Part shown: positions 6,942-10,358 of the stretch, piece after piece
Layout: every line of letters begins with the position of its first letter
Numbering within the stretch: position 1 is the first letter of the stretch
From: Scytonema sp. RU_4_4
GTDB taxonomy: Bacteria > Cyanobacteriota > Cyanobacteriia > Cyanobacteriales > Nostocaceae
DNA: 41,633 nucleotides
Reading direction: 5' to 3'
Assembly: GCA_012031965.1 (NCBI GenBank)
Contig: JAAUSC010000041.1
Span: forward strand, 1 to 41,633
Translations under genes and position numbers: made by a program
Notes under the pieces: model-generated
Told to the model about the DNA's origin: nothing
What the model saw: the letters and a program-made list of their open reading frames with translations, nothing else
Database searches by the model: none

Positions 6942-7097
6942 CTAGATGCGCCCCCAACTACTAAGAGTGGCAACAACATGATAGGTCAGGATTTTTTTGA
7001 GCTTTGGAATGTCCTTAAGCAGTGCGTCTACTGTACCTTTGGGAAGCTTGGCAAACGCCTCATCGTTGGGTGCGAAAAGGGTTAGAAGCACAAATTC
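6942..7097 (-). pseudogene. Fasciclin (FAS1) domain remnant
   Basis: Read on the minus strand from 7097, the frame gives [20 protein letters not shown], then [19 protein letters not shown]. This is the H1-box-containing core of a FAS1 domain (typical form [15 protein letters not shown]...ILTYHVV), stopping soon after at 6942. The N- and C-terminal parts of a normal domain (about 130 aa) are missing and there is no start codon. It abuts the truncated 3' end of the sigma-factor gene, so a deletion appears to have joined two unrelated genes. Confidence 0.7.
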
Positions 7098-7521
7098 AGC
7101 CCCACTCAGGCGAAAATGTTCGTGCCACAGGTCTTAGCGAGGATGGTATAAGGGCTGATTCAGGTGACTCAAGTAGAAATATTAAAACTTCTATTTGCGA
7201 AGCTGTTTCTTCAATATTATCTACCCCTATTGCCTTTCTGCCATGCTCTCGGTGTATGTCCATACAAAGATTATGAGTAAAGCGCGTCAGCCAAGCTTTA
7301 AGATTAGTGATTTTGTCAGCATGGAGGAATAGTTGATCCCAGGCTTTGAGAGTCGCTTCAGAGAGGGCATCTTGGGCATCTGTAATATTTCCATCCATCC
7401 AAGTTAGACAGCAATGATAAAAATAATCTTGGTATGGCATCCATAGTTGCCAAAAGGCAGTGCGCTCCCCTTGAGATAAACTTTTTAATAGAAGCTGTTC
7501 AGCCGATGGGGATGGTTGCAT
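7096..7521 (-). pseudogene. Truncated ECF-type sigma factor (region 2 only)
   Basis: Sigma-70 family protein with a recognisable region 2 (DAQDALSEATLKAWDQL and ITNLKAWLTRFTHNLCMDIHRE, about residues 45-95) that would bind core RNA polymerase and the -10 element. After ESPESAL (about residue 125) the sequence changes to an unrelated 16-residue tail and stops, so region 4, which reads the -35 element, is missing; full-length relatives are about 180-200 aa. The stop overlaps the FAS1 remnant, marking a deletion junction. ATG start at 7521. A region-2-only protein could be inert or interfere with polymerase; I consider it a decaying gene. The small gene at 7589-7858 lies immediately upstream. 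Confidence 0.75.
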
Positions 7522-7920: not shown

Positions 7921-8040
7921 GAGAGGCTGCGCCTTAGCGTAAGCGCTTTGCATTCAGCTATACCGGAGGCTATACGCCCGATCTTGTGTGCTGAGTTGAA
8001 TGTGTAGGCTTTGCCGGAGCGCAAGGTAACCCACCATTTT
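7921..8040. repeat. Dispersed palindromic repeat tract
   Basis: Contains short inverted repeats such as GCTTAGCGTAAGC (about 7931-7943) and GC-rich segments reading GCCGGAGCGCAAGG, in the style of the other repeat tracts. At 7904-7914, just before it, AGCGATTCTCA matches the MITE terminal repeat found in the OCP gene and may be a solo end. Confidence 0.45.
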
Positions 8041-8057
8041 TATGCTTGAGAGCATGA

Positions 8058-8089
8058 TTTTAAGCCAGAGCGATCGCTCTGGCTTAAAA
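8058..8089. terminator. 32-bp perfect palindrome, likely bidirectional terminator
   Basis: A perfect dyad centred on CGATCG, with arms ending in AAAA/TTTT, lies 35 bases beyond the OCP stop. On the minus strand it gives a GC-rich stem followed by T residues, fitting a rho-independent terminator for OCP. It contains a HIP1 octamer at its centre. Confidence 0.65.
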
Positions 8090-8123
8090 AACACAGTTCA
8101 TCACTCATCACTCTCAAGTTCTT

Positions 8124-8525
8124 CTACCTTATGAAGCCCAGGTTCAGCAGTTCCTGGGGAGATGCCAGCAAATCGATCGCCACAAAGAAAATCTTGTCTT
8201 GCGGATTAAGCAAGAACCGCCATGCTAGATTTATGCCAACACTGTCACCAAACCAGGGAGTTTGCACTTTACCCGTCACTTTAATCTGGGTGAACTCTTT
8301 TTCCCCTGGCTCAGACACTCCCCTTTCAGGAATCAGCTTGAGTCCGTAGCATTCTTCACGCATGTACACAAGAATGGACTCCTGACCCACAATCGGTTCT
8401 TGGAAAGGGGGTTGCAGGATACCGTCTTCAGCAAATATAGCGGTTCTCATTTGGATAAAATACATTTTCATCTGCGTCGAGGGTGCGTCGAGGGTGCGGT
8501 TCCTTAACTCTTTGATGTATCGCAC
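8124..8525 (-). pseudogene. ocp: OCP C-terminal (NTF2-like) domain, severed from its gene
   Basis: From about residue 30 the frame is an orange carotenoid protein regulatory domain: FAEDGILQPPFQEPIVGQE, MREEC.GLKLIPERGVSEP, QIKVTGKVQTPWFG, NLAWRFLLNPQ and a C-terminal IDLLASPQELLNL. The Trp of the AWRF block is the one that contacts the carotenoid keto group in OCP. The first 28-30 codons come from the inserted MITE, so this is not a natural stand-alone CTD homologue, though it looks like one. No ribosome site precedes the possible starts. Removing the 105-bp insertion restores a continuous ...AVALFAEDGILQ... frame with the upstream N-terminal part. It is probably not expressed, unless translated from a start inside the MITE. 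Confidence 0.9.
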
Positions 8526-8542
8526 TCAACTGAGAATCGCTA
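8438..8542. mobile_element. 105-bp MITE (IS630/Tc1-mariner type) in the OCP gene
   Basis: Terminal inverted repeats TAGCGGTTCTCA (8438-8449) and TGAGAATCGCTA (8531-8542) match at 11 of 12 positions and extend with mismatches to about 28 bp (21 matches). The element is flanked by TA on both sides (8436-8437 and 8543-8544), the target duplication of IS630/Tc1-mariner elements. It has no coding capacity and carries an internal direct repeat GCGTCGAGGGT x2 (about 8473-8494). Deleting it with one TA restores the OCP frame exactly. Confidence 0.88.
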
Positions 8543-9097
8543 TAAAGCCACAGCTCCCTGGAAGTCAAAAGCGTTCATATTCTCCATGTAGCTCAGGACT
8601 GTCAAGTTGTCGATGCCCTGAATGCTGACCTTAGCTCGTGGTGCGATATCTTTAGATGGAACCACAGGTTCTTTGACTTTTTGAGTGCTAACCGTTGGGG
8701 CATACCCCATGTTGATGACAATATCCTGTAATACGGCGAGTTGTTGACCCCCTTCAAGTTGACGGATGGCTTGGAGCACATCTGATGCCTTTGCAGACAG
8801 TTTATAACCTTCTGGAATGGGAGCAACGATGCCCTCTTTCATCCACTCGCTTAACTGATACCAGAAGCCCAACTTGACATTCGTGCCGAAAGATGAATAT
8901 GTACGGCAGATAGGAGTATCAGTATGGTTAACGAGATCGCACATAACTTGCGTTTGCTCCAAATCAGGCATCTGCTTGATTTGAGTCAGGGTTTTTTCTG
9001 CAAAGACTATGTTGACTACCTGCATAGCAGCGGGAGTGATTGTAACTCCCATCTCGGTATAGGCAAACCAAAGTAAAGCCAACTGATCCTCAGCCGA
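8540..9097 (-). pseudogene. ocp: OCP N-terminal carotenoid-binding domain, 5'-truncated
   Basis: All-helical carotenoid-binding domain of the orange carotenoid protein, which quenches phycobilisomes in strong light. Visible: SAEDQLALLWFAYTEMG, QVMCDLVNHTDTPICRTY, LGFWYQLSEWMKEGIVAPIP and the linker start PRAKVSIQGIDNLTVLSYMENMNAFDF. The first 30-35 residues expected in OCP are absent; the frame upstream of 9097 is unrelated and has no ATG, only a TTG at 9082. It ends at a stop created by the MITE just after ...AVAL. So the gene is broken at both its 5' end and the domain junction. The 5' truncation point lies next to the stop of the hydroxylase gene at 9157, suggesting a second rearrangement. 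Confidence 0.88.
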
Positions 9098-9156
9098 TAC
9101 AAAAAGTAATGAAAGTGTCGATTTGAATTCTTTTAATTGACGCTTACCGGAAAATT

Positions 9157-9906
9157 TTAGATGTGGAACTCATTCTCATAATTAGGGTCTTGAGTACTGA
9201 GCAGCTTGTCCCAGAGCGTGAAATACAATCCGTAGTGCACGGTGTACTTGCGATGATGTATCGAGTGATGCGTCGAACCGATAAACCACCTTCCGAACCA
9301 GTGGCTCTTAAATGAGGAGGGAAATAGCTCGAATCCAAGATGATTCAACACTGCCAATATCGTCATCGTCATGAGCACGGTAACTAAGGTGATGAAATGG
9401 AGCGGGACTATGAAGACTACACCTACAAAGAAGAGCGCCTGTACAATCGCCTCTGGCGGATCGAACGCGAAGGAACTCCACGGTGTTGGATCTCCCGAAC
9501 GGTGGTGTCCAAAATGCATCCATCTGAAAAGCAAGCGGTGGTGAAACATCCGATGAATAAAGTAAAAGGACGTATCCTGAAGGATGAGCACCGCCACAAA
9601 GCTGACTCCTAAATACCACAGTCCATACTCACGTAGGTCAGTGTACAAGAGCGTTACTCCCAAATCGTATTCTGAGATGATGAACGCTGCACAAAGAGCA
9701 AAAACGACCGCAGAGAGAATCGATAGTTCGATATCGTTCCAAATCAACCGACTCAACGGTGGCTTTAAACGCAAACTCCGTTTAGCGAGAGACTTCCCTA
9801 GAATCGAATAGAAGAGCAAGTACGCTCCCCCTGCGATCAGAAAGTATCGGGCAAAAATAATCCCGAAGAAGACAAACGAATAGAAGCAAAATGAGTGGTT
9901 CGTCAA
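9157..9906 (-). CDS. Sterol desaturase/fatty acid hydroxylase superfamily membrane protein
   Basis: Integral membrane di-iron oxygenase of the fatty-acid-hydroxylase superfamily. The histidine boxes are in order: HRMFHH, HFGHH, NHLGFE and THHSIHH, with four or five hydrophobic segments between. Such enzymes hydroxylate or desaturate lipid or carotenoid chains; the substrate here is unknown. I place the start at TTG 9906, because it overlaps the upstream gene's stop as TTGA and AAAGGAG lies about 9 bases before it; this gives 249 aa, a normal length. An ATG at 9948 would sit inside the upstream gene. Cotranscribed with the 9903-10358 gene. Its stop nearly touches the truncated OCP, marking a rearrangement boundary. 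Confidence 0.82.
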   Translation of the reverse strand: MTNHSFCFYSFVFFGIIFARYFLIAGGAYLLFYSILGKSLAKRSLRLKPPLSRLIWNDIELSILSAVVFALCAAFIISEYDLGVTLLYTDLREYGLWYLGVSFVAVLILQDTSFYFIHRMFHHRLLFRWMHFGHHRSGDPTPWSSFAFDPPEAIVQALFFVGVVFIVPLHFITLVTVLMTMTILAVLNHLGFELFPSSFKSHWFGRWFIGSTHHSIHHRKYTVHYGLYFTLWDKLLSTQDPNYENEFHI

Positions 9907-10358
9907 TTTAACGTTTTCTCCTTTGGATAGAAGAAATATGTCACCCACTTACTTGGTTGGTTTTCATCTTCTATCAAGGAATCATTACGCTGATAAATAA
10001 ATGTCACAAAGTAGTATAGATTCTCTTGCGTATGGACAAACTTGCCGTATTCGATCTGCCGAGTTATTTCAACAAAGGTCGTCTTATCCAACGTGGGGAG
10101 GGGAAAAAGTTTCAAACTCACACTTAATGGAGCCGCCTCAACGAGGTTTTTAGTCCCCCGATCTACTACGGGTAAAATCACCCACTCCTGACTCCACGGG
10201 TGTGGATCGGGCGAAATAATTTGTAGGTAAGGGGTGTTTTTATCGACCCAGTACCATGCTCCCCGTTCAATATTTTGAACGGGGATGTAATTATCTTGGG
10301 GTGGCAGCCGTCCTATAAATTTCAGAAAACTTGTGTCTTGTCGGTCGATCAGGTTCAT
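9903..10358 (-). CDS. Hypothetical protein upstream of the hydroxylase
   Basis: Unrecognised 151-residue protein, soluble, beta-rich with many aromatic residues (ERGAWYWVDKNTPYLQI, QEWVILPVVDRG, LYYFVTFIYQRND). No signal peptide, membrane segment or metal motif. Start ATG at 10358 with AGGA about 9 bases upstream. Its stop TGA overlaps the TTG start of the hydroxylase, so the two are translationally coupled and probably act together, perhaps on membrane lipids; that role is inference only. It lies 60 bases downstream of the frameshifted DUF4833-like gene in the same direction. Confidence 0.65.
   Translation of the reverse strand: MNLIDRQDTSFLKFIGRLPPQDNYIPVQNIERGAWYWVDKNTPYLQIISPDPHPWSQEWVILPVVDRGTKNLVEAAPLSVSLKLFPLPTLDKTTFVEITRQIEYGKFVHTQENLYYFVTFIYQRNDSLIEDENQPSKWVTYFFYPKEKTLN

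Follow-up and report, generated by a model that had tools for sequence, protein, structure and literature searches.

An OCP2 gene of Scytonema sp. RU_4_4 carries a MITE within its C-terminal domain codons and lacks its 5' end

The window is the whole stretch of DNA analysed here, 41,633 nucleotides of contig JAAUSC010000041.1 from Scytonema sp. RU_4_4, whose genome assembly has 7.33 Mb in 400 contigs and is estimated to be 96.6% complete. On its minus strand lie two fragments of an OCP gene, a light-protection gene of cyanobacteria, separated by a 105-bp element, and the N-terminal fragment ends abruptly near a fatty acid hydroxylase-family gene. The features of the locus are as follows.

8124–8435, minus strand: OCP2 C-terminal fragment, residues 217–319 and the stop codon, with the Trp288 equivalent and without the first two CTD helices.
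8124–8525, minus strand: open frame of 133 aa that starts at a GTG of the MITE and continues into the CTD fragment, a likely chance product (residues 1–15 have pLDDT < 50).
8436–8437, no strand: TA target copy.
8438–8542, no strand: MITE of 105 bp, a putative non-autonomous relative of an IS630-type element, recognised by inverted ends flanked by TA, by 42 or more matches in the genome and by IS ends that match its own.
8438–8449, plus strand: left terminal inverted repeat, TAGCGGTTCTCA, matching 12/12 the end beside the IS630 fragment of the same genome.
8531–8542, plus strand: right terminal inverted repeat, TGAGAATCGCTA, with one mismatch to the left repeat and an 11/12 match to the same IS end.
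8540–8542, minus strand: TAG stop made by the insertion junction, directly 3' of the Leu216 codon.
8543–8544, no strand: TA target copy.
8543–9094, minus strand: OCP2 N-terminal fragment, residues 33–216, covering the larger part of the NTD, the linker, and CTD helices one and two with the Tyr201 equivalent; DNA homology ends at 9094.
9095–9147, no strand: 53 unmatched bp next to the truncation point, in the place expected for the 5' end of OCP2.
9157–9948, minus strand: fatty acid hydroxylase-family gene, which now adjoins the truncated OCP2 and lies on a separate contig from OCP2 in genome G002.

The element begins TAGCGGTTCTCA and ends TGAGAATCGCTA, so that 11 of the 12 end bases pair, and its imperfect inverted repeat reaches 30 nt at 77%; with a length of 105 bp it could encode 35 aa at most. 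Removal of the element together with one TA leaves an uninterrupted OCP frame (...AVALFAEDGILQ...), while in the sequence as it stands the minus-strand frame runs through ...GAVAL into the TAG at the insertion junction, and picks up again with FAEDGILQ. A preliminary description of this DNA had reported a non-coding 105-bp MITE with 12-bp ends differing at one position, a TA duplication and a frame restored by its removal, and all of these are seen. An 11-bp perfect tandem repeat, TGCGTCGAGGG, occupies positions 8473–8494 inside the element, and the family alignment varies in length there. We also considered the element as an encoded in-frame linker, and this is ruled out because the 107 added bases shift the frame and the TAG follows immediately. 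From 192 relatives the best 80 were retained; none of the 79 OCP loci fetched shows an insertion at this site, and every one runs continuously across it.

Within its own genome the MITE has at least 42 matches at E<=0.001, 22 of which span positions 1–105; this count is a lower bound, with 40 of 108 first-look candidates scored, and as a level of sequence similarity it is far beyond chance. One other copy among the matches scored, on contig C37, is 100% identical and sits between two ORFs, 5 and 21 bases off. Of 30 own copies fetched as loci, eight are partial matches and the ends of the remaining 22 were inspected; TA is present on both sides of 19 of these and of three of four copies from relatives (22 of 26 in total). 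Five of 21 own copies, the OCP2 copy included, overlap an ORF of at least 80 aa and 16 do not, some of which ORFs may be there by chance (L020, whose match covers 3–98 only, was omitted). Matches are found in 16 of the 59 genomes searched, own genome included. The preliminary description would have been overturned by an element found nowhere else in the genome and already present as a linker in intact OCP relatives; the abundance of own-genome matches, and the lack of such a linker in 79 OCP loci, leave the finding standing.

The genome contains 12 DDE_3 matches, and an IS630-family transposase fragment lies at the end of contig C393. The adjoining element end reads TATAGCGGTTCTCAGTTGGG, and the element end beside the transposase fragment also reads TATAGCGGTTCTCAGTTGGGTACAATA; this IS end matches the left end of the MITE at 12/12 and 23/27 positions, and the right end at 11/12 and 22/27. 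End-to-end IS630-type elements with TA flanks are present in two genomes of the same genus, one of 1,059 bp in G002 which matches the MITE at 12/12 positions at both ends, and one of 1,035 bp in G004 with matches of 12/12 and, at the right end, 10/12. Both carry a transposase split over two reading frames, which may reflect frameshifting or decay. A complete IS630-type element was not found assembled among the 400 contigs of the genome itself. The last 37 residues of the C393 transposase are found again, 97% identical, at each end of C216 (3–113 and 11029–11139 of 11,141) and at the end of C352 (5883–5993 of 5,993). As these transposase ends sit at contig ends, the presumed parent element probably exists in several copies and interrupts the assembly. 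The own-genome fragment with its matching end, and the two end-to-end elements in related genomes, bear out the IS630-type parent proposed at the outset, and from the ends alone we infer that the MITE was moved in trans by an IS630-type transposase.

Nezha is a MITE of the IS630/Tc1-mariner type in cyanobacteria. The window MITE is likewise short, non-coding and multi-copy, with inverted ends, a TA duplication and a transposase-bearing element with matching ends, as for cyanobacterial MITEs of this type and for ISY100 as an IS630 element. The likeness drawn to Nezha, ISY100 and other published cyanobacterial MITEs concerns these general features, the family here being defined by its TAGCGGTTCTCA ends. 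ISY100 is an IS630-family element of Synechocystis that has TA as its insertion target, and in vitro it needs no more than 30 bp at either end (PMC2170065, in the excerpt consulted). The window MITE is a real element of a known kind. A search of the open-access literature for Brasilonema together with transposase returned nothing.

The interrupted gene was identified by structure and tree. Both fragments have 8pzk and 8pyh as their best PDB relatives, and the PDB titles of these, from Gloeocapsa sp. PCC 7428 and Crinalium epipsammum PCC 9333 respectively, name them OCP2. In a tree of 24 rows, with no row named OCP2 included, the window gene falls in a six-row clade (100/100) apart from the Synechocystis OCP1 clade, and its neighbour is the gene of G002 (100/99), a genome which is probably that of Brasilonema angustatum HA4187-MV1. 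The F. thermalis OCP2 begins MSFTIE as translated here from a primer (PMC9157063, available as an extract), and the gene at the F. thermalis locus L037 also starts MSFTIE. We therefore take the window gene, on these comparisons, to be OCP2. An earlier assignment to OCPX, made from its own sequence alone, was dropped because the tree and the PDB titles gave OCP2. The gene keeps the equivalents of Tyr201 and Trp288 as in 8pzk and 8pyh, but unlike them it lacks residues 1 to about 30–32 and is cut by the MITE at 216|217, and so is not a complete two-domain OCP2 with an N-terminal arm. Looking up the OCP2 and OCPX structures by PDB code led to no relevant paper in the open-access literature searched.

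The position of the break within the protein decides what its two pieces are. Published limits of OCP place the NTD at residues 15–165 (also 22–165) and the CTD at 190–317 (also 196–315), as given in an excerpt of PMC4358027, and Tyr201 and Trp288 both belong to the CTD (PMC4358027; PMC9909426, likewise in excerpt). The N-terminal piece aligns to 7sc9 as far as residue 214, which is query residue 178 of 180, and the C-terminal piece aligns from 217; with two residues remaining, the N-terminal piece therefore ends on 216. The break separates the equivalents of Leu216 and Phe217, 20–26 residues inside the CTD and after its first two helices. These two residues, like Tyr201 and Trp288, are invariant throughout an alignment of 47 intact OCPs (the own-genome OCP1 and 46 of the 79 loci; L047 was excluded because of its length, 282 aa). 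In a model of the B. angustatum OCP2 (mean pLDDT 75), helices span 196–206 and 210–215 and a strand spans 217–224, which places the insertion within the NTF2-like CTD, after helix two and before the first strand. The alignment limits and the order of helices and strand together put the insertion within the CTD, with the Tyr201 equivalent left on the N-terminal piece and Trp288 alone on the C-terminal piece.

The preliminary description had instead placed the split precisely between the two domains, such that the MITE would yield natural stand-ins for the helical carotenoid protein HCP and the C-terminal domain homologue CTDH. The open frames of 180 and 133 aa do resemble these proteins in size, the HCP of this genome having 169 aa and the open frame of its CTDH 146 aa, and HCP and CTDH have the NTD or CTD fold in common with the fragments; their limits, however, do not coincide with the break, which at 216|217 is inside a CTD that starts at 190 or 196 (PMC4358027, as excerpted) and not between NTD and CTD. 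Tyr201 is on the wrong side of it. The N-terminal piece extends 53 residues beyond the end of the Carot_N match, comprising the linker and two CTD helices on top of the NTD part, and lacks the OCP start and the N-terminal arm. In the CTDH All4940 chain 6fej, 28 chain residues precede the break point and are absent from the C-terminal piece; AnaCTDH has both Tyr26 (the Tyr201 equivalent of All4940) and Trp109 (PMC6123778, in part), and the C-terminal piece holds Trp288 only. Neither piece matches HCP or CTDH, since the insertion sits inside the CTD; we do not expect them to work as two separate proteins of HCP and CTDH type, and give a division at the domain boundary almost no credence. The related statement that the carotenoid-contacting residues of the CTD lie beyond the break is right for Trp288 and wrong for Tyr201.

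A second lesion, overlooked in the preliminary description, removed the start of the gene. DNA homology ends at 9094 in nine of nine loci compared (L115 and L116 being duplicates of L074 and L037), and protein similarity to OCP1 goes two codons further, to 9100. The window OCP2 is without its start codon, N-terminal arm, about 30–32 codons and upstream region. When a 596-bp G002 query containing the 5' end and upstream DNA was compared with the own genome, its only match was at the OCP1 paralogue (69%). It could be argued that the MITE alone broke the gene and that the truncation is an assembly mis-join: the junction is known from a single contig, IS copies lie at contig ends in this assembly of 400 contigs, and the neighbouring gene is on another contig in G002. 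There is also a 92% copy of 9148–9199 (52 bp), the 3' end of the fatty acid hydroxylase gene and 53 bp from the truncation point, at C206:4023–4073 (L176), and a repeat-mediated event or a mis-join at the junction is therefore possible. Set against this, the join is internal to one contig, its 53 bp have no second copy in the own genome at E<=0.001, and the 5' end of OCP2 is absent from the rest of an assembly of this estimated completeness. We consider a mis-join unlikely. Elsewhere in the window, at 6942–7521 on the minus strand, a Sigma70_r2 fragment abuts a Fasciclin-domain fragment near 7091–7096, apparently a further junction between genes, or point of decay, near the broken OCP2.

Loss of the start also bears on whether the MITE could act as a reversible switch, leaving the gene by precise excision in a subset of cells. 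The identical copy on C37 suggests recent movement, and taking out the element with one TA gives an unbroken frame; but the own genome yielded no second copy with an empty site, and excision alone would not restore OCP2 because the gene start is also missing, so that a switch is extremely improbable.

Both OCP2 fragments are still open, with no further stops within them, which counts against a decaying gene. Compared with the sister gene, the window OCP2 has dN of 0.031 and dS of 0.130, and lineage-specific codons show silent to replacement ratios of 9:6 on its own branch and 7:7 on the sister branch (eight are ambiguous). As its own branch has no excess of amino-acid changes, this fits recent breakage, and the codons give no sign of a long relaxation, although the numbers are small. 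In the C-terminal part alone the ratios are 3:3 and 2:2, and this lack of a clear replacement excess is one of the points in favour of a CTD fragment translated from a start in the MITE and serving as a small carotenoid carrier. The 133-aa open frame does start in the MITE, and of five AlphaFold models the best one shows a CTD core predicted with confidence; its fold-search matches are OCP and CTDH chains, which the sequence would lead one to expect. The five models, however, range in mean pLDDT from 78.5 (best) to 50.1 (worst), the MITE-encoded residues 1–15 are below 50, and the Tyr201 helix is absent. The sole promoter-like site in 8000–9400 (9066–9039, outside the MITE) compares with a mean of 1.9 in shuffles, and the gene's own upstream DNA is gone. 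Such a carrier has very little probability, and a working split protein from the window OCP2 is very unlikely.

The preliminary description had called for a check for another intact OCP, and the genome does contain an intact OCP1 of 319 aa on C238. It also contains HCPs on C53 and C180 and a CTDH on C180, names which are our reading of single-domain matches. In addition, an OCPX-like remnant at C122:2566–3075 (L212) holds the linker and whole CTD in a 182-aa open frame and keeps the Tyr201 and Trp288 equivalents. Its closest PDB chain is 8a0h, titled OCPX, it is 90% identical to a full-length gene in G006, and its homology ends at one base relative to G006, G001 and G003. Silent to replacement ratios of its codons are 7:7 on its own branch versus 11:3 for G006, with 15 ambiguous, a weak hint of relaxation; being on a contig of 3,345 bases, it may be contamination or a mis-assembly. 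In this genome OCP2 (by truncation and MITE) and OCPX (by truncation alone) have both lost the N-terminal end and kept open C-terminal frames. That OCPs are reduced in nature to free CTDs, with a new CTDH-like carotenoid carrier as a possible outcome, has a slim chance, and the remnant on C122 rather than the window gene is the likelier candidate because it keeps the linker and the whole CTD with Tyr201 and Trp288.

Across seven genomes of the genus, own genome included, an intact OCP1 is present in four (G000, the own genome, and G002, G004 and G005), an intact OCP2 in one (G002), and full-length OCPX-like genes in three (G001, G003 and G006); an absence from G003 would carry little weight, as that genome is only 89% complete. 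Two short OCP-like fragments in G002, C97:89977–90177 (query residues 51–117, with an internal TAG) and C78:95862–95990 (residues 1–43), suggest that this genome also holds OCP remnants.

We conclude, with a probability of about 0.9, that the window contains a decaying, redundant OCP2 paralogue with a MITE within its CTD codons and a separate 5' loss, and that its pieces are not HCP- or CTDH-like. A 105-bp non-autonomous element, presumably moved by an IS630-type transposase acting in trans, entered a TA in the CTD codons, with the TAG directly after Leu216 as the visible result. A separate rearrangement would have taken the start codon, about 30–32 codons and the upstream region, seen as missing on the assembled contig, and would have left the fatty acid hydroxylase gene as the neighbour. 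The decay is probably recent, with the MITE as one of its lesions, and loss of OCP2 was probably tolerated because the gene was redundant and an intact OCP1 was kept. The preliminary judgement of mostly inactivation holds. A natural precedent is the inactivation of microcystin genes by MITEs in Anabaena strains (PMC10969869, in excerpt), which is likewise insertional inactivation in a natural cyanobacterium, but in a different gene, and the window OCP2 also bears the separate 5' truncation. No case of an OCP pseudogene or of a transposon insertion in OCP was among the matches listed in the open-access literature searched.

The attractive idea that a domain fusion was reopened by one transposition thus has to be corrected: the insertion is inside the CTD, the start of the gene is lost too, and the OCP fusion is not reopened. 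OCP2 and OCPX occur sporadically according to the available portion of PMC10172135, and the tally over the seven genomes, with an intact OCP1 and the remains of OCP2 and OCPX in this one, fits that distribution. The window locus is a clear snapshot of OCP paralogue loss within one genus.
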